From Ruegeria spongiae (GTDB lineage: Bacteria > Pseudomonadota > Alphaproteobacteria > Rhodobacterales > Rhodobacteraceae), in assembly GCF_023502395.1 (NCBI RefSeq), contig NZ_JAMFMB010000012.1:1-64000 (forward strand): a stretch of 64,000 bases of DNA, read 5' to 3'. The notes beneath the pieces are model-generated. The model had not been told where the DNA came from and did no database searches. It was given only the letters and a program-made list of their open reading frames with translations. Of this stretch, positions 8,360 through 15,844 are shown piece by piece (position 1 is the stretch's first letter; the number at the start of each line of letters is the position of its first letter). A program made the position numbers and the translations under genes.

Positions 8360-10507
8360 ATGGGCGCGCGGATTGAAAAGCAGGGGCTACAGGTTGCGGC
8401 TGAATATGCGGATTTCATCGAGCGGCAGGCCCTGCCCGGGACCGGTGTGTCGCCGGATGATTTCTGGGCGGGGCTCAGCCGGCTGGCACATGACTTCGGT
8501 CCGGAAAACCGTGCCTTGCTGCAAAAGCGTGAGGATATCCAGCAGCAGATCGATGCCTGGCATGTCGCCCATCGCGACGCCCCCCACGATGCCGAGGCTT
8601 ATAAGGCCTTTCTGACAGAGATTGGCTATCTGGTGCCCGAAGGCGCGGATTTCGAGATTGATACGGTCAATGTCGATCCCGAGATCGCGCTTGTGCCGGG
8701 ACCGCAACTGGTGGTGCCGATCACCAACGCCCGCTATGCGCTGAATGCGGCGAATGCGCGGTGGGGATCGCTTTATGACGGGTATTACGGCACCGATGCG
8801 ATGGGCTCTGCCCCGCCTTCGGGTGGCTATGACCGGGGCCGGGGCGCGCGGGTTGTGGCGCGGGCGCGGGTGTTTCTGGACGAGGCGTTTCCGATTTCCG
8901 GCACCAGCCACGCAGATGTGCGGCGCTACCATGTGAAGGGTGGCGCGCTGCTGATCGACGATCAGCCGCTTCTGCAGCCCGAGAAATTCGCCGGTTTTCG
9001 CGGTAACCCCAAAGCCCCGGATGCGGTGCTGCTGCGTAACAATGGTCTGCATGTGGAACTGGTTTTCGACCGCGCCCATGCCATCGGCAGCCGCGATCAG
9101 GCCGGGCTGGCGGATGTGCGGCTGGAAAGCGCGATGTCGGCGATCATGGATTGTGAAGACTCCGTCGCCTGCGTCGACGCCGAGGACAAGGTGCTGGCCT
9201 ATTCCAACTGGCTGGGGCTGATGAAGGGCGATCTGGAGGCCACTTTCCAGAAAGGCGGCAAGACCGTCAGCCGGGCGCTGAATGCGGATCGCGACTTCAT
9301 AGGCCCCGATGGCGCTCCTGTGGTGCTGAAGGGCCGCGCACTGCTCTGGGTGCGCAATGTCGGGCATCTGATGACCAACCCGGCGGTGCTGGATCGCGAC
9401 TGCAATGAGATCTTCGAAGGGCTGATGGATGGGCTGACCACCACTCTGATCGCCATGCACGACCTGCAGCGCGAGAGCGGCAATTCAGTGCATGGCTCGG
9501 TCTATATCGTGAAGCCCAAGATGCACGGGCCGGACGAGGTCGCGTTCACTGACCGCATCTTCGACGCGGTCGAGGACATCCTCAGCCTGCCGCGCCACAC
9601 CGTGAAGATCGGTGTGATGGATGAGGAACGCCGCACCAGTGCCAACCTCAAGGAATGTATCCGCGCGGCGAAATCGCGGGTCGCCTTTATCAACACCGGC
9701 TTTCTGGATCGGACCGGCGACGAGATTCACACCTCGATGGAGGCGGGGCCGTTCAGCCGCAAGGATTTCATCAAACGCAAGGGCTGGATCGGGGCCTATG
9801 AGACCCAGAATGTGGATATCGGGCTGGAATGCGGGCTGATGGGCCGGGCGCAGATCGGCAAAGGCATGTGGGCCATGCCCGACCTGATGGCGGCAATGCT
9901 GGAACAGAAGATCGAGCATCCCAAATCGGGCGCGACCTGCGCTTGGGTGCCCAGCCCGACAGCCGCGACCCTGCATGCGTTGCATTATCACAAGGTCGAT
10001 GTGATGGCGGTGCAGACGCGCCTGCGCGCAGGCGGACGGCGGGCCCATCTGGACGGGCTGCTGGAGATTCCGCTGGCCGCGTTCCGCAAATGGACGCCGG
10101 AGCAGATCACGCGCGAGGTCGAGAACAATGCGCAGGGTATCCTCGGCTACGTGGTGCGCTGGGTCGATCAGGGTGTGGGTTGCTCCAAAGTGCCCGATCT
10201 GAACGATGTGGGTCTGATGGAGGACCGCGCGACCTGCCGCATCTCGGCCCAGCATATCGCCAACTGGCTGCATCACGGGGTGGTGGATGCGCAGCAGGTG
10301 ATGGGCCGCTTGCGCAAGATGGCCGAGGTTGTGGACCGCCAGAACGCGGGTGACCCGGAGTATCGCCCGATGGCGCCCGGCTATGACGGGATCGCGTTTC
10401 AGGCCGCCTGTGATCTGGTGTTCAAGGGGCGGACGCAGCCCTCGGGCTATACCGAGCCGGTATTGCATGCGCGGCGATTGGAATTGAAAGCCTCGACGGG
10501 GGCCTGA
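8360..10507 (+). CDS. glcB: Malate synthase G
   Basis: Condenses glyoxylate with acetyl-CoA to malate in the glyoxylate shunt and in glycolate use. The 715 residues match the monomeric G isoform (about 720) rather than the shorter A form. Family blocks include [20 protein letters not shown] near 210, an internal [14 protein letters not shown] near 265, MHGPDEVAF near 380 and [10 protein letters not shown] near 420. The start ATG has GGAGGG about 6 nt upstream. It is followed 91 bp later by a GlcG-like gene, an association also seen in the enterobacterial glc cluster. Glycolate oxidase genes are not in the window. Confidence 0.97.
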
Positions 10508-10519
10508 GCCGGTAAGCGG

Positions 10520-10560
10520 GAAGGGGCTGTCTGCCCCCTCTGCCCCCGCGGGGCATTCAG
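10520..10560 (+). terminator. GC-rich hairpins after glcB
   Basis: Two adjacent short dyads follow the glcB stop: GGGGC-TGTCT-GCCCC and TGCCCC-GC-GGGGCA. There is no U-tract directly after them. Similar C/G-rich stretches are common between genes in this family, so the termination role is only inferred. Confidence 0.35.
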
Positions 10561-10598
10561 TCCCGAGAAATTTTTAGCCAGAGGAAGAGGAACAGGTC

Positions 10599-11024
10599 AT
10601 GGCATTGTCACTGAGGCGCGCGCGTACAATCATTCGCAAGACTTTGGAGAAGGGCCGCGAGCTGGAACTAAAACCGCTCTCGGTCGTGGTTCTGGATGCG
10701 GGCGGGCATGTGCAGGCGTTCGAGCGCGAGGACGGGGCGGCGCCGGGGCGGTTCGCGATTGCGCATGGCAAGGCCTATGGGGCGGTGATGCTGGGCATGG
10801 CGGGCACCGCACAGATGCAGCGCGCCGAGGGTCAGGCCTATTTCATGGCCGCTGTGAACGGTGTCTATGGCGGGCAGGTGGTGCCGGTGCCTGGCGGCGT
10901 GTTGGTGCGCGACAAGAAAGGCGCGGTGATTGCTGCTATTGGCGTCACGGGTGACACATCGGACAATGACGCCGCAGCGGCCCTTGCGGCGATCGAGGCG
11001 GTGGGGCTGACCGGCGAGATTTGA
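10599..11024 (+). CDS. GlcG/HbpS-family haem-binding-like protein
   Basis: A 141-residue protein of the GlcG/HbpS (DUF336) family. Characteristic parts are the VVVLDAGGHVQAFERED strand-turn near residues 33-49, AIAHGKAYGAVMLGM near 56-71, GGQVVPVPGGVLVRD near 92-106 and the closing GVTGDTSDNDAAAALA near 113-129. Family members bind haem or cobalamin, or have unknown roles. Next to malate synthase the role may relate to glycolate metabolism, but that is by association only. AGAGGAA lies about 8 nt before the start ATG. There is no signal peptide, so it is cytoplasmic. Confidence 0.88.
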   Translation: MALSLRRARTIIRKTLEKGRELELKPLSVVVLDAGGHVQAFEREDGAAPGRFAIAHGKAYGAVMLGMAGTAQMQRAEGQAYFMAAVNGVYGGQVVPVPGGVLVRDKKGAVIAAIGVTGDTSDNDAAAALAAIEAVGLTGEI

Positions 11025-11081: not shown

Positions 11082-11960
11082 ATGATCGAGGGCGCAATGC
11101 TGGTCTGGTTTCTGCTCACGGGTGCGAGCGCGGCATTTGTGATATGGGATTCGCTGTTCAATGGCGTGACAAGCTGGGTGCAGCGGGCGGCCTGGATACT
11201 GGTGACGCTCTACACCGGGCCGGTGGGGCTGTTCTTCTACCTGCTGACTTGCCGACGGCCGTTTCCCGGCGGGCACGATGCCTTCACCAGGACCACCTGG
11301 AAGCAGGGCGTTAACAGTGAGATGCATTGTGTGGCCGGGGATGCCACCGGCATCATCGTGGCGGCAAGCCTGGTGCATTTCCTGACCCTGCCCAATGGCT
11401 GGGATATCGTGGTCGAGTATTCCTTTGGGTTCATATCGGGCCTTTTCATCTTTCAGGCTCTGATGATGTTGCCGATGTTCGGCAGCTACACCCAGGCAGT
11501 GCGCAAGACGATCTTTGCCGAAACCGTGTCGATGAATTTCGTGATGACCGGCATGATCCCGACGATGGTGCTGCTCGCCGCAGCCTGGCCCGGTTCGGAG
11601 GACCCGCTGACGCTGGGTTTCTGGTTTCGCATGAGTCTGGCGACCGTTGTCGGTGCTGTAGTGGCCTTTCCGATCAACTACTGGCTGGTGGCGAACCACC
11701 TCAAACACGGCTGCATGACGCTGCCCGGTGCGGATGGTCCGGCGCCGGACATGGGGCACCGTTCGTCGGAAATGGCGGGGCATGAGGGTATGGAGATGGG
11801 CGGTCAAATGGATCACGACATGAAGCGCGACCACAAGATGGCCATGCGGTCCGTGCCGACCGGGCAGGCTCTGGCTTGGATCATCGGCACCTATGCGCTG
11901 CTGATTGCGGCGCTGTGGCTGACTTCGCGAATGACGCCGATCACGTTCCAGGGTTGGTAG
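11082..11960 (+). CDS. DUF4396 membrane protein with Met/His-rich linker
   Basis: A 292-residue integral membrane protein with about seven or eight hydrophobic segments, resembling the DUF4396 family. The ATG at 11082 is preferred over the upstream TTG because GGGGAG lies about 8 nt before it. The C-terminal third has a soluble Met/His/Asp-rich linker (pieces such as HEGMEMGGQMDHDMK, near residues 230-250) before the last helix. Such linkers in other families bind copper or related metals, so metal handling is plausible but unproven. No metal-related gene is adjacent. The gene stands alone. Confidence 0.75.
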   Translation: MIEGAMLVWFLLTGASAAFVIWDSLFNGVTSWVQRAAWILVTLYTGPVGLFFYLLTCRRPFPGGHDAFTRTTWKQGVNSEMHCVAGDATGIIVAASLVHFLTLPNGWDIVVEYSFGFISGLFIFQALMMLPMFGSYTQAVRKTIFAETVSMNFVMTGMIPTMVLLAAAWPGSEDPLTLGFWFRMSLATVVGAVVAFPINYWLVANHLKHGCMTLPGADGPAPDMGHRSSEMAGHEGMEMGGQMDHDMKRDHKMAMRSVPTGQALAWIIGTYALLIAALWLTSRMTPITFQGW

Positions 11961-12090
11961 CGCGGCTACACCTCACTATTGTGCAGGGTTCCACATGCGC
12001 CTGCGCCATGACGCAGAATGTGCATTGTTGCGAAGCGGATAGGGCGGCAATACAGTCAATCACAACATGAAACCCAGTGCAGGAGCATCC

Positions 12091-12870
12091 ATGGCGCGTC
12101 CGGTTGTCGGCATCATCGGCAATTCCTACCTGATGAACGATCAGTATCCGACCCATGCGGGCGGGACGATGAATTCGGATGCGGTGGCCAATGTCTCGGA
12201 ATGCCTGCCGCTGCTGATCCCGTCGGACCCGCGCTTTGTCTCGGTCGCGGAATTGCTCGAGGTCTGCGATGGCTTCGTGCTGACCGGCGGGCGGCCCAAT
12301 GTGCATCCGGCGGAATATGGCGAAGCCGAGACCGAAGCGCATGGCGAGTTCGACCGGGCGCGTGATGCGATCGTGTTGCCGCTGGTGCGCGCCTGCGTCG
12401 AGCGGGGACAGCCGTTCTTCGGTATCTGCCGGGGGTTTCAGGAGGTGAATGTCGCCATGGGTGGCACGCTCTACCCCGAAATTCGCGATTTGCCCGGGCG
12501 AACGAACCACCGGATGCCGCCCGACGGTACGCTGGAGGAAAAGTTCGCTCTGCGCCATGTGGTGACACTGCGCGAGGGCGGGGTGTTTCACAAGGTTCTG
12601 GGTGCGCGCGAGGTGATGACCAACACGCTGCACGGGCAAGGGATCAACACGCCCGGCGAACGGATCGTGATCGACGGAGAGGCTGCGGATGGGACGCCCG
12701 AGGCGATCTATGTCGAGGACGCGCCGGGCTTTACCCTGTCGGTGCAATGGCACCCGGAGTGGAATCCGGGCAGTGACCCGGTGTCGCGCCCGCTGTTTTG
12801 CGCATTTGGCGATGCGGTGCGGGAATGGTCCGTGTCGCGGCGCGGAATCGGATATCAGAAATCCGCCTGA
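12091..12870 (+). CDS. Class I glutamine amidotransferase, gamma-glutamyl-GABA hydrolase-like (peptidase C26)
   Basis: A 259-residue member of the PuuD-like C26 family that hydrolyses gamma-glutamyl compounds. The nucleophile elbow GICRGFQEVN places the catalytic Cys at residue 113. The His and Glu of the triad are in QWHPEW (about 221 and 223). AGGAG 5 nt before the ATG at 12091 decides the start over an ATG 24 bp upstream. In PuuD the reaction releases GABA from gamma-glutamyl-GABA in putrescine breakdown. No other puu gene is nearby, so the natural substrate is open. It is convergent with the phosphonate gene pair. Confidence 0.9.
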   Translation: MARPVVGIIGNSYLMNDQYPTHAGGTMNSDAVANVSECLPLLIPSDPRFVSVAELLEVCDGFVLTGGRPNVHPAEYGEAETEAHGEFDRARDAIVLPLVRACVERGQPFFGICRGFQEVNVAMGGTLYPEIRDLPGRTNHRMPPDGTLEEKFALRHVVTLREGGVFHKVLGAREVMTNTLHGQGINTPGERIVIDGEAADGTPEAIYVEDAPGFTLSVQWHPEWNPGSDPVSRPLFCAFGDAVREWSVSRRGIGYQKSA

Positions 12871-12941: not shown

Positions 12942-13565
12942 TCAGGCGGCGCGTTCTGCGGCTCTGACAGGGTCGCTCAGAGGGGCCCGTTGTCCCGGGC
13001 GGATCACCTCCGGGTCATAGGGTTTGCGGTCAAACACCTCGCGGACCATGGGCACGAAGAACTCCAGCGGTAGCGTGTCATAATCCGGGTCGAACGAGGC
13101 CTGATCCCAGCGTTCGCAAAACACCGCGTTGTCGTCGAAACAGGGGTGGCCGCGATGGCGGTCGCGCTTGTTCTGGTCGAACCCCTCCAGGTGATGCCCG
13201 TAATAGAGCATCTGGAAATCGCCATGGGTCTGGACCACCCAGGCGCATTGTTCGCGCACAAAGGGTCTGAGGATCGTGGCGGCGTATTCGTCATGATTAT
13301 AGGGCGCGTAGATGTCGCCGATATCGTGCAACAGGGCCGAGACGACCCAATCGGTATCGGCCCCGTCGCGCCAGGCGCGGGTGGCCGATTGCAGCGAATG
13401 GCCCAGCCGGGTGACCTGATAGCCCGACAGGCTTTCGTCCAACTCGACCAGCGCCTTGAGCAGCCGATCGGCGGTATGTCGTGTGTGGTCGATCTCATGG
13501 GCGGTGAGAAATTCATACTCTTCCCGCGTGCCGTCCTTCATCTGGGTGAACTTGACCTGTTTCAT
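12942..13565 (-). CDS. tmpB: HD-domain mixed-valent diiron phosphonate oxygenase, TmpB/PhnZ-like
   Basis: A 207-residue HD protein of the PhnZ/TmpB/MIOX-like oxygenases, which cleave a C-P bond of an alpha-hydroxyphosphonate with O2. Visible diiron ligands are His56 (in LGHSLQSA), His80-Asp81 (LLHDIGD), His91 (YNHDEY), His114 (VQTHGDF) and an Asp near residue 158-163 (WDQASFDP). The HSLQ(S/C)A block is a hallmark of this group. In TmpB the products are phosphate and glycine betaine, in PhnZ phosphate and glycine. The start overlaps the tmpA stop as ATGA, so the two are coupled. TmpB was characterised from the roseobacter Leisingera caerulea. I prefer TmpB over PhnZ from overall resemblance, from memory. 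Confidence 0.7.
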   Translation of the reverse strand: MKQVKFTQMKDGTREEYEFLTAHEIDHTRHTADRLLKALVELDESLSGYQVTRLGHSLQSATRAWRDGADTDWVVSALLHDIGDIYAPYNHDEYAATILRPFVREQCAWVVQTHGDFQMLYYGHHLEGFDQNKRDRHRGHPCFDDNAVFCERWDQASFDPDYDTLPLEFFVPMVREVFDRKPYDPEVIRPGQRAPLSDPVRAAERAA

Positions 13566-14431
13566 CCTGCATAGACCCCTTTCTGTTCCTTGGCCCCGGC
13601 CATCTTGGCGGCAAGCTCGGCCTTCATGACCTCTTCATAAAGCGCCAGCGAACGCGGCGCGAACAGGGTTTCGGGCGGCGCCATCAATGTGAAATTGCCA
13701 TGCCGGTCCGCCCCGCGCGCGAGCATGGCATAGTCGCGGTCGGCCACCTGCTGGGCAATATCAGGCCGGCAATAGCGGATCACCAGCCCGATCCGCCGGT
13801 CATCGGAACTGTTGGCGCCCGAGCCGTGGATCGTCAGCCCGTGATGCAGCGACATCTGGCCCGGCTGCAACTCGATCGCGACCTTGTCTTCATCGGCCAC
13901 ATCGACCTTGATCTCTTGCCCGCGGCTCAAAAGGTTGGTGTCGCTGAACGTGTCTTCATGCGGCAGGATCGGGTTCTTGTGGCTGCCCGCCACAAAATCC
14001 ATGCAGCCCGAAGCGGGTGTGGCGGGCGACAGCGCCAGCCAGGCAGTGACCAGCCCGTCGATCTCGCCCAGCCCCCAATAGGTCAGGTCCTGATGCATGG
14101 TGACAATATGCCGGGTCTGCGGTTCCTTGACGAAGAACTCGACCGCATAGATCAGGATATCTGGGCCGAGGATGGGTTCGACCGCGTCCAGTATCCTGGG
14201 GTCCATCGCAACCTGATAGGCCATCGGCATCACGCAATGGGCGTTGATCTTCTTGTAGGTATTGAGCGGGCGGGGCAGGTCGCTATCGGTCCAGTCCCGC
14301 TCGATCCGCTGGAATTTGACGCGCCACTGCGCGGCCTCGTCCGTGCCCATCACGGTGAGCGGGAACAGGAAACCGTCGCGCCAATAGGCCTGCGTCTGGT
14401 CTGTCGTCAGGGTCGCATCTCCCTGCGTCAT
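13562..14431 (-). CDS. tmpA: Fe(II)/2-oxoglutarate dioxygenase of the phytanoyl-CoA type, TmpA/PhnY-like
   Basis: A 289-residue member of the PhyH superfamily. The iron triad is visible as His113-x-Asp115 (TMHQDLTYWG) and His202 (IHGSGANSS), with Arg213 placed to bind the 2-oxoglutarate carboxylate (DDRRIGLVIRY). In the TmpA/PhnY* group the enzyme hydroxylates the alpha carbon of (trimethylamino)ethylphosphonate or 2-aminoethylphosphonate, making the substrate for the HD oxygenase encoded directly downstream. GGAGG lies 8 nt before the ATG. True phytanoyl-CoA activity is unlikely given the pairing. No phosphonate transporter is adjacent. Substrate choice (TmpA versus PhnY) is inferred. Confidence 0.7.
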   Translation of the reverse strand: MTQGDATLTTDQTQAYWRDGFLFPLTVMGTDEAAQWRVKFQRIERDWTDSDLPRPLNTYKKINAHCVMPMAYQVAMDPRILDAVEPILGPDILIYAVEFFVKEPQTRHIVTMHQDLTYWGLGEIDGLVTAWLALSPATPASGCMDFVAGSHKNPILPHEDTFSDTNLLSRGQEIKVDVADEDKVAIELQPGQMSLHHGLTIHGSGANSSDDRRIGLVIRYCRPDIAQQVADRDYAMLARGADRHGNFTLMAPPETLFAPRSLALYEEVMKAELAAKMAGAKEQKGVYAG

Positions 14432-14767
14432 GGCTGGGTCCTCCGCCCGGTTGCGATTCTGCTGCGATCAGTGTCGTGGGGGGGCTGCGGCGGTGTCCAC
14501 GCCATCTCCGACATCGATATTGTCGCATCCGGTATGGTCTGGCCGCGTTGCGCCAGCATATCGCCGTAATTGTGCCCGATCCGCCCGTTAGGCTGTGCTG
14601 CATGGTTACAACGGCTCACGGCAACGTTTCTTGTGTGTATCTTGTCACAGACGCACCGGGTGCCCATGATTTAAGGTACATCTATATTGATCCCGCCGAG
14701 GCGAGGGGGCGCCGAAGCGGATATCGCAGGAGATTGTGGCCCCTGAGTGTATGAGAACGGGTGCGGT
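14432..14767. other. Divergent intergenic region, tmpA / DUF2235 gene
   Basis: A 336-bp spacer between divergent genes. It should hold both promoters. The right half (14630-14700) is AT-richer, with TTGTCA at 14653 and TATATT at 14691 too far apart to be one promoter. Only short shadow frames are present. I find no clear operator or RNA gene. Confidence 0.4.
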
Positions 14768-15844
14768 ATGGGTTTCTCACGGCTGAGTAGAAAATTGCTG
14801 GGATGGCTTGGAAAGCCGTTGCGTTCCGAGCATTCCGCCGAGACGGCGCATCGCCTGCCGAAGGTGCATGTGATCATCCTCGATGGCACCATGTCCACAC
14901 TTGAGCCCGGTCGCGAGACCCATGCGGGCCTGACCTATCGGCTGCTGAGCGAGATGGGCGGGCAGGTGTCGGTGTTCTACGAATCCGGTGTGCAATGGCA
15001 AAGCTGGCGTGGCACCACGGATGTGCTGCTGGGCCGTGGGATCAACCGACAGATCCGCCGGGCCTATGGCTATCTCGCCTCGCGCTACAAGCCCGGCGAC
15101 AAGATTTTCCTGATGGGGTATTCACGCGGGGCTTACGGCGTGCGCAGCCTTGCGGGCGTGCTGGACATGGTCGGGCTGCTCAAGGCCGAACATGCGACCG
15201 AGCGCAATATCCGGCAGGCGTACCGTCATTATGAATGCAACCCGCGCGGGCCCCACGCAGCGGATTTTGTGCGCGCCTATTGCCATGAGGATGTGCCGAT
15301 CGAGATGATCGGGGTCTGGGATACGGTCAAGGCACTTGGCTTGCGTCTGCCGCTGCTGTGGCGCTGGGCCGAGGCGCGTCATGCGTTTCACAACCATCAA
15401 CTGGGTCCAAGCGTACGCCACGGCTATCACGCGCTGGCGCTGGATGAGTCGCGCGAAGTGTTCGAGCCGGTGCTGTGGAAATGCGACCCCAGTTTCAAGG
15501 GACATGTGGAACAGGTCTGGTTCCGGGGGTCACATGGCGATGTCGGCGGCCAGCTTGGCGGGTTTGACGCAGCACGTCCGCTGTCCAATATCTCGCTGCT
15601 CTGGATGCTGGATCACGCCAAGGCGCATGGTCTGCCGCTGCCGCAGGGCTGGCGCATGCGGTTTGCCACCGATGCCGGCGCGCCTTCGGCCGGAACATGG
15701 CGCGGATGGGGCAAGATTTTCCTGTTGCGCGGCAGGCGCCGGATTGGTCAAGACCCGTCAGAGCGGTTGCACGAGTCAATTCCGCGCGAAGCGCTGGAAA
15801 AGACCGAGGACGCATTGTCCTTGCAATCCCATGCGGTCAACTGA
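14768..15844 (+). CDS. DUF2235-domain alpha/beta hydrolase (Tle1-like fold)
   Basis: A 358-residue protein from the ATG at 14768; an in-frame GTG at 14747 would add seven residues. DUF2235 landmarks appear in order: VIILDGTMSTLE (about residue 36), the nucleophile elbow GYSRGAYGVRSLAG (about 116), VWDTVKALG with the likely Asp (about 183) and WFRGSHGDVGG with the likely His (about 257). The fold is shared with type VI secretion phospholipase effectors (Tle1), but no T6SS or immunity gene is nearby and there is no signal peptide, so a cytoplasmic hydrolase of unknown substrate is as likely. Confidence 0.82.
   Translation: MGFSRLSRKLLGWLGKPLRSEHSAETAHRLPKVHVIILDGTMSTLEPGRETHAGLTYRLLSEMGGQVSVFYESGVQWQSWRGTTDVLLGRGINRQIRRAYGYLASRYKPGDKIFLMGYSRGAYGVRSLAGVLDMVGLLKAEHATERNIRQAYRHYECNPRGPHAADFVRAYCHEDVPIEMIGVWDTVKALGLRLPLLWRWAEARHAFHNHQLGPSVRHGYHALALDESREVFEPVLWKCDPSFKGHVEQVWFRGSHGDVGGQLGGFDAARPLSNISLLWMLDHAKAHGLPLPQGWRMRFATDAGAPSAGTWRGWGKIFLLRGRRRIGQDPSERLHESIPREALEKTEDALSLQSHAVN

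Follow-up and report, generated by a model that had tools for sequence, protein, structure and literature searches.

The gene pair and its products

Two overlapping genes on the minus strand of contig NZ_JAMFMB010000012.1 of Ruegeria spongiae are the subject of this analysis, which took in positions 1 to 64,000 of the contig (the window). The first gene (13562..14431; open reading frame, Pfam PF05721 and AlphaFold2 model) encodes a 289-residue PhyH-type Fe(II)/2-oxoglutarate-dependent hydroxylase. The second (12942..13565; open reading frame, family models, tree and fold) encodes a 207-residue HD-domain protein that resembles diiron oxygenases and belongs to a family apart from, and related to, PhnZ and TmpB. 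The stop codon of the hydroxylase gene (TGA) and the start codon of the HD gene (ATG) share the tetranucleotide ATGA at 13562..13565. A first-pass annotation of this DNA had read the pair as TmpA-TmpB, the (trimethylamino)ethylphosphonate pathway known from Leisingera caerulea. Much of what it described is borne out: the overlap; a compact two-gene oxidative tandem whose HD protein has PhnZ and TmpB as its nearest solved relatives; the catalytic residues of both proteins; and the lack of an adjoining transporter or regulator in the window, the pair's closest neighbours there being a Peptidase_C26 gene and a Tle1-like lipase gene. The identification itself did not survive, as set out below. No paper describing a PhyH-HD pair was found among open-licence papers.

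The hydroxylase scores 103.3 bits on PF05721 (PhyH), for which the Pfam cut-off is 22. Its HxD iron-binding motif (H113 and D115, 14087..14095; all coordinates given for the pair are on the minus strand) and the segment running from the distal iron ligand H202 to the 2-oxoglutarate-binding R213 (13793..13828) are conserved: H113, H202 and R213 are invariant among 27 aligned homologues, and D115 is missing from just one of these. The AlphaFold2 model has a pLDDT (predicted local distance difference test) score of 89.7, and its nearest solved fold is ThoJ (6zyl, E 5.5e-25), a model-based likeness that says nothing about a phosphonate substrate.

The HD protein is recognized by the general HD model of Pfam (PF01966, 23.5 bits against 22). 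Six predicted metal ligands, H56 (13398..13400), H80-D81 (13323..13328), H91 (13293..13295), H114 (13224..13226) and D154 (13104..13106), are invariant in an alignment of 42 relatives reaching down to 29% identity, and in a profile alignment (hhalign, 99.4%) they pair one to one with the ligands of TmpB-type proteins. This set agrees with the oxygenase-type HD pattern of PMC8177086 (excerpts), in which polynuclear phosphodiesterases carry an extra HH pair; among the relatives that pair is not invariant (His at position 125 in 32/42). The AlphaFold2 model, built from the 42 sequences, has a mean pLDDT of 95.6. Foldseek gives it ten matches at E 0.001 or below, every one a PhnZ or TmpB chain, and structural alignment with VIA-align gives Z scores of 17.0 for PhnZ, 16.2 for TmpB and 11.4 for myo-inositol oxygenase (MIOX), with the remaining rows at 7.8 or less. 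Searching solved structures with the family profile returned PhnZ (E 4.2e-12), TmpB (E 2.8e-11) and one Cas10 chain (E 0.06), and did not reach any MIOX structure at E 0.1. Membership of the MIOX family was considered and set aside: the score on PF05153 (24.4 bits, 23.9 in a second run) lies under the cut-off of 25, and MIOX trails PhnZ and TmpB in both the profile and the structural comparison. Judged by predicted structure, the protein is probably an HD oxygenase whose closest fold is that of PhnZ and TmpB and which is a member of neither family; since fold and profile both come closest to those enzymes, it probably works like them.

Separation from the phosphonate-cleaving enzymes

The HD protein falls far below the cut-offs of the curated models of phosphonate-cleaving HD oxygenases: 33.7 bits on the TmpB model NF049941 and 26.2 on the Gimesia PhnZ model NF052439 (cut-off 300 for each), and 36.8 on the general model TIGR03276 (cut-off 214.6), although the last is to be read with the caution that the genuine TmpB of the same genome also lies just below it (199.2). 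At E 0.01 the general model does match all 42 relatives, with a best E of 2.6e-12 (3.8e-59 for the genuine TmpB). The hydroxylase gives no match to the TmpA model NF049936 (cut-off 400) at E 1, and 15.9 bits on the Gimesia PhnY model NF052437, whose cut-off is 500.

A place outside the PhnZ/TmpB clade was among the results that the first-pass annotation itself had named as refuting its identification. In the maximum-likelihood tree a single branch with support 100/100 parts the 42 rows of the HD family from 20 PhnZ/TmpB-type rows, and the same split is recovered at 100/100 when three long HD-family rows are removed (39 against 20). The PhnZ/TmpB-type rows are TIGR03276 matches at E 1e-15, drawn from 20 of 200 sampled genomes with the source genome included, and 7 of the 20 exceed the curated cut-off. 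With two groups, no outgroup and neither HF130 PhnZ nor Leisingera TmpB among its rows, the tree shows that the HD protein of the window is not nested within the sampled phosphonate-type group.

The predicted pocket differs as well. Five residues outside the metal site, Tyr28, Glu31, Lys111, Arg161 and Lys168 in the numbering of this genome's TmpB, are present in 18 of 18 phosphonate-type proteins; in the profile alignment they correspond to L46, Y49, Q118, E151 and F158 of the HD protein. The PhnZ structure paper reportedly has the lysine and the arginine binding the phosphonate group. Among the relatives, positions 118 and 158 are always Gln and Phe, respectively (42/42 each); position 49 holds Tyr or Phe in 42/42 and never Glu; positions 46 and 151 vary, with Tyr in 4/42 and Arg in 1/42, respectively. 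L46-S-G-Y49 (13419..13430) thus stands where PhnZ and TmpB have their Tyr-x-x-Glu substrate loop, which consists of that Tyr and that Glu (PMC8177086, excerpts).

A genuine TmpA-TmpB pair is present elsewhere in the genome. On contig 109 (L102:9559-11300 and 11381-12238) a second HD protein passes the TmpB model (357.4 bits against 300), and a TmpA scoring 594.8 against 400 lies just upstream of it, the two genes overlapping, with a divergent LysR-like gene beside them. This TmpA belongs with the gamma-butyrobetaine dioxygenases (TIGR02409, 423.9 bits against 414.75) and is the sole TIGR02409 match in the genome at E 0.001; the PhyH gene of the window is therefore not what a TmpA looks like. 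The first-pass annotation had supposed that uptake is provided from elsewhere and proposed a genome-wide look for phosphonate transporters: a search for PhnD-type binding proteins yielded one sub-threshold match (46.4 bits against 112.05), and none was found for PhnJ, other phosphonate families not having been searched. The TmpA-TmpB identity was rejected on model scores, trees, residues and the genuine pair at the other locus, and a phosphonate pathway in general is not supported. By sequence comparison the two genes form a separate, uncharacterised family that resembles a phosphonate-degrading pair.

Relatives, their partners and their neighbourhoods

Among 198 genomes drawn from the Rhodobacteraceae, 69 hold a match to the HD protein (E 1e-3; 68 of these matches are strong); for the Pseudomonadota the figure is 59 of 398 (E 1e-10), the source genome being counted in both samples. 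Of 108 loci located by tblastn, 52 have a PhyH gene directly upstream of HD. The count is 49 of 101 after identical HD proteins have been merged, and 43 of 80 for the named genome loci (the best 80 of 339 relatives), an adjacency that is more than chance. Judging positions by eye, PhyH lies within 1.6 kb of HD in 31 of the 68 genomes with strong HD matches, and of the 37 genomes whose PhyH match reaches E 1e-70, 31 have HD beside PhyH. PhyH, in short, mostly accompanies HD, and HD often does without PhyH; the pairing is looser than the first-pass annotation had assumed. Neighbouring genes were taken from a home-made gene caller, which missed the HD gene altogether in 14 of 110 loci. Neighbour counts are therefore rough, although the HD anchors for the PhyH, LysR and aldolase neighbourhoods come from tblastn.

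In some relatives a different dioxygenase takes the place of PhyH. Directly upstream of HD in loci L152, L173, L150 and L210 is a dioxygenase of the TmpA/butyrobetaine type, scoring 317.7 (L152), 422.5 (L173) and 347.5 bits (L210) against the TmpA cut-off of 400; in L150 it is a TauD-family protein with 39% identity to TmpA. The aromatic positions that in butyrobetaine dioxygenase hold the trimethylammonium group are kept in three of these four. In a Ruegeria metagenome-assembled genome (L068) the gene after HD encodes a Rieske oxygenase (PF00355, PF00848) without an NCBIfam match at E 1e-40; nearby are genes resembling MttB (220.7 bits against 525), GcvT and butyrobetaine hydroxylase (PF02668, PF06155). 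Over the different loci HD has oxygenases of three kinds as direct neighbours (PhyH, TmpA/butyrobetaine-type and Rieske), and its hydroxylase partners appear to be exchangeable.

The lead to a substrate comes from some of the same neighbourhoods. In Defluviimonas denitrificans (L086) HD lies between a BKACE gene (PF05853, 342.3 bits) and carnitine 3-dehydrogenase (770.4 bits, cut-off 592); the same order recurs in genome G248 (L149), whose proteins are 59% and 83% identical to their L086 counterparts, and in genome G008 HD is 0.5 kb from carnitine dehydrogenase. A Pseudomonas plasmid operon (L210:6872-12829) comprises the TmpA-like dioxygenase, HD, a choline-binding protein (457.7 bits against 379.05), a choline dehydrogenase (755.8 against 605 on a subfamily model; 673.9 of 732.1 on betA) and an aldehyde dehydrogenase.

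To gauge how general this association is, nine marker proteins were used, all of them from loci that were not in the test set. With test loci trimmed to 8 kb on either side of HD and 16 kb stretches of the same genome set as controls, quaternary-amine markers were found in 8 of 55 HD loci versus 1 of 40 controls (one-sided Fisher p 0.047), and in 5 of 20 loci whose HD is at least 50% identical (p 0.013, same controls). An untrimmed run, in which some test loci were longer than the controls, gave 9/55 versus 1/40 (p 0.028). Weak matches are included in these counts, among them choline-dehydrogenase-like proteins at ~40% and dimethylglycine-dehydrogenase (DMGDH)-like ones at 33%.

Further neighbours are more varied. 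One protein cluster, named LysR by eye, has a member no more than three genes from HD in 41 of 136 loci, in 39 of these upstream and on the opposite strand. The LysR divergent from PhyH-HD in relatives has ~29-37% identity over most of its length to the LysR beside the genuine TmpA-TmpB, and among the sampled loci only the TmpA-TmpB locus itself gives better tblastn scores; regulators of this kind being numerous, the likeness is a weak clue. In the Phaeobacter inhibens plasmid locus L209:8001-9647 an HD gene labelled 'inositol oxygenase family protein' is followed by a sterol-desaturase-family gene (PF04116). Comparable fatty-acid-hydroxylase-type genes (likeness by eye) lie at most 80 bp downstream of HD in nine loci and dienelactone-hydrolase-type genes in six (one member tested: PF01738, 38.1 bits); neither type of neighbour offered a substrate lead. 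Operon partners elsewhere are of the enoyl-CoA hydratase type (L062) and the peptidase M24 type (L114).

Proposed reaction and substrate

Our tentative reading, for which we would claim somewhat less than an even chance as a whole, is that the pair is a two-oxygenase relay, in a family of its own but operating in the manner of PhnY-PhnZ and TmpA-TmpB, that cleaves a hydroxylated quaternary-ammonium compound and not a phosphonate. The 2-oxoglutarate hydroxylase would add a hydroxyl group to a carbon of a small substrate, and the HD protein, presumably as a mixed-valent diiron oxygenase, would then use O2 to cleave a bond adjoining the carbinol carbon. The substrate would most likely be of the carnitine or betaine type, the bond cut a C-C bond and the product a betaine-type acid. 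The parts of this proposal do not stand equally firm. That the HD protein performs HD oxygenase chemistry is likely, and there is a good, somewhat lesser likelihood that the substrate is something other than a phosphonate; a relay with the paired hydroxylase is reasonably probable; a quaternary-ammonium substrate is suggested at slightly under even odds; and it would be a poor bet to name any single compound.

One more specific version makes the pair the carbon counterpart of TmpA-TmpB: the starting compound would be a carboxylate with a trimethylammonium group, beta-alanine betaine or carnitine for instance, and after its hydroxylation the HD enzyme would cleave the neighbouring C-C bond, an oxidative way to glycine betaine that does without coenzyme A. 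The hydroxylase would be PhyH in roseobacters and a TmpA/butyrobetaine-type enzyme in some others, and the invariably aromatic residue at position 49, in place of the amine-facing Glu, would hold the cation. So particular a scheme is improbable.

A number of observations weigh against the quaternary-ammonium relay. The tree program warned, for both trees, that long branches meet at the split between the HD family and the PhnZ/TmpB-type group. HD has no PhyH beside it in 56 of 108 loci, so that a relay with PhyH is not obligatory. In the window no quaternary-amine gene adjoins the pair. The marker enrichment is weak, 47 of the 55 HD loci being without any marker, and the marker list was picked after the contexts had been seen; for that reason, and on account of the weak matches, the enrichment is support and not proof. 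Carnitine dehydrogenase is present in 67 of the 69 HD genomes versus 84 of the 129 others (p 5e-8), a co-occurrence that is not leaned on because the statistic ignores relatedness. The partner at L173, where HD is 43% identical, lies just above the TmpA cut-off, so phosphonate chemistry is conceivable for that branch; its aromatic cage positions differ. A branch of the HD family at ~44% identity stands directly beside class II aldolases (L157, L160, L172 and the Sphingobium plasmid locus L254), which suggests a second function within the family. Finally, at L188:7161-10856 a PhyH homologue stands without HD. Its putative operon also contains genes for a class II aldolase, for a protein of the four-carbon-acid-kinase type (PF07005, PF17042) and for one of the hydroxyisobutyrate-dehydrogenase type; transporter-like genes and a gene for a GcvT-fused FAD (flavin adenine dinucleotide) oxidoreductase are divergent from it.

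Phosphonate cleavage after the manner of TmpA-TmpB or PhnY-PhnZ, with the hydroxylase making an alpha-hydroxyphosphonate from which the HD protein releases phosphate, has the nearest profile and fold on its side. PhnY-type hydroxylases are PhyH proteins, the hydroxylase of the window does touch the Gimesia PhnY model, the overlapping two-gene layout repeats that of the genome's own TmpA-TmpB, and the L173 partner clears the TmpA cut-off. We nevertheless regard this pathway as quite unlikely: scores on the three HD models and the PhnY model are a small fraction of what is called for, the invariant non-metal residues of the phosphonate-type group are replaced in a protein that branches outside it, another locus already supplies the genuine pair, and the genome has neither PhnJ nor a PhnD-type protein above cut-off (within the search already delimited). 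If, on the other hand, the HD protein were a phosphohydrolase or some other HD hydrolase and PhyH merely a frequent neighbour, the many loci without PhyH would be readily understood; one record does name an HD homologue a phosphohydrolase, and known HD proteins are mostly of that kind (PMC8177086, excerpts). Such a role fits poorly with the oxygenase ligand pattern and the inconstant His125, with Z scores that put PhnZ and even MIOX well above hydrolases, and with three kinds of oxygenase as direct neighbours; it, too, is improbable.

The third alternative to the quaternary-ammonium relay keeps the C-C bond cleavage and changes the substrate, making the HD protein a MIOX-like oxygenase for a polyol or sugar acid. 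A MIOX score barely below the Pfam cut-off, the label that PLSDB gives the Phaeobacter homologue, and the aldolases beside the 44% branch and, together with the four-carbon-acid-kinase-type gene, in the L188 PhyH operon all point that way. The family profile misses MIOX and the predicted structure is farther from MIOX than from PhnZ, however, and the aldolases are seen beside the 44% branch, whereas several nearer relatives adjoin carnitine- or choline-type genes. We give this alternative roughly one chance in five.

Several characterised systems come close to the pair. With TmpA-TmpB it shares the overlapping order of 2-oxoglutarate hydroxylase and HD oxygenase as well as the six metal ligands and the fold of the HD protein; it differs in that its HD protein lies outside the TmpB-type group and has neither the Tyr-x-x-Glu loop nor the Lys/Arg/Lys set, and in a hydroxylase that is PhyH and not of the butyrobetaine-dioxygenase type. 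PhnY-PhnZ, the 2-aminoethylphosphonate pathway, and the Gimesia pair likewise combine a hydroxylase with an HD mixed-valent diiron oxygenase, a metal state predicted for the HD protein of the window; PhnZ is its nearest solved fold, but the distance on the curated models is large. MIOX has the HD diiron oxygenase fold and, according to excerpts of PMC8177086, needs no paired hydroxylase, unlike the arrangement proposed for the window. The carnitine 3-dehydrogenase route to glycine betaine (cdhCAB type) is linked to the family through members that lie inside such operons (L086, L149), while excerpted text on the caiX-cdhCAB-hocS operon of P. aeruginosa names no HD protein (PMC5806209).

HD oxygenases of this kind have been described for few substrates, namely phosphonates and inositol, in the excerpts at hand of PMC8177086 and PMC10574752, and a family with the distribution given above would add a new branch to their chemistry. 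Its existence is also a warning against taking every hydroxylase-HD pair of this sort for a phosphonate pathway. Published figures for the share of surface-ocean genomes with phnZ lie anywhere between less than 1% and about 20%, and homologues with other substrates complicate them (PMC10574752, excerpts). The genome's own TmpA-TmpB offers a usable internal control for the pair of the window, which makes the question directly testable.

Two further features lie near the pair. Divergent from the PhyH gene, at 14747-15844 on the plus strand, is a gene with the catalytic domain of a Tle1-like phospholipase (PF09994, 201.5 bits), of the type known as type VI secretion system effectors; in 21 of 136 loci a member of its protein cluster stands no more than three genes from HD. 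On the other side, at 8360-11024 on the plus strand, an HbpS-like gene comes after the gene for malate synthase G (PF01274, 203.4 bits). Glyoxylate might be a by-product of the proposed cleavage, and a tie to this malate synthase G gene is a matter of speculation.

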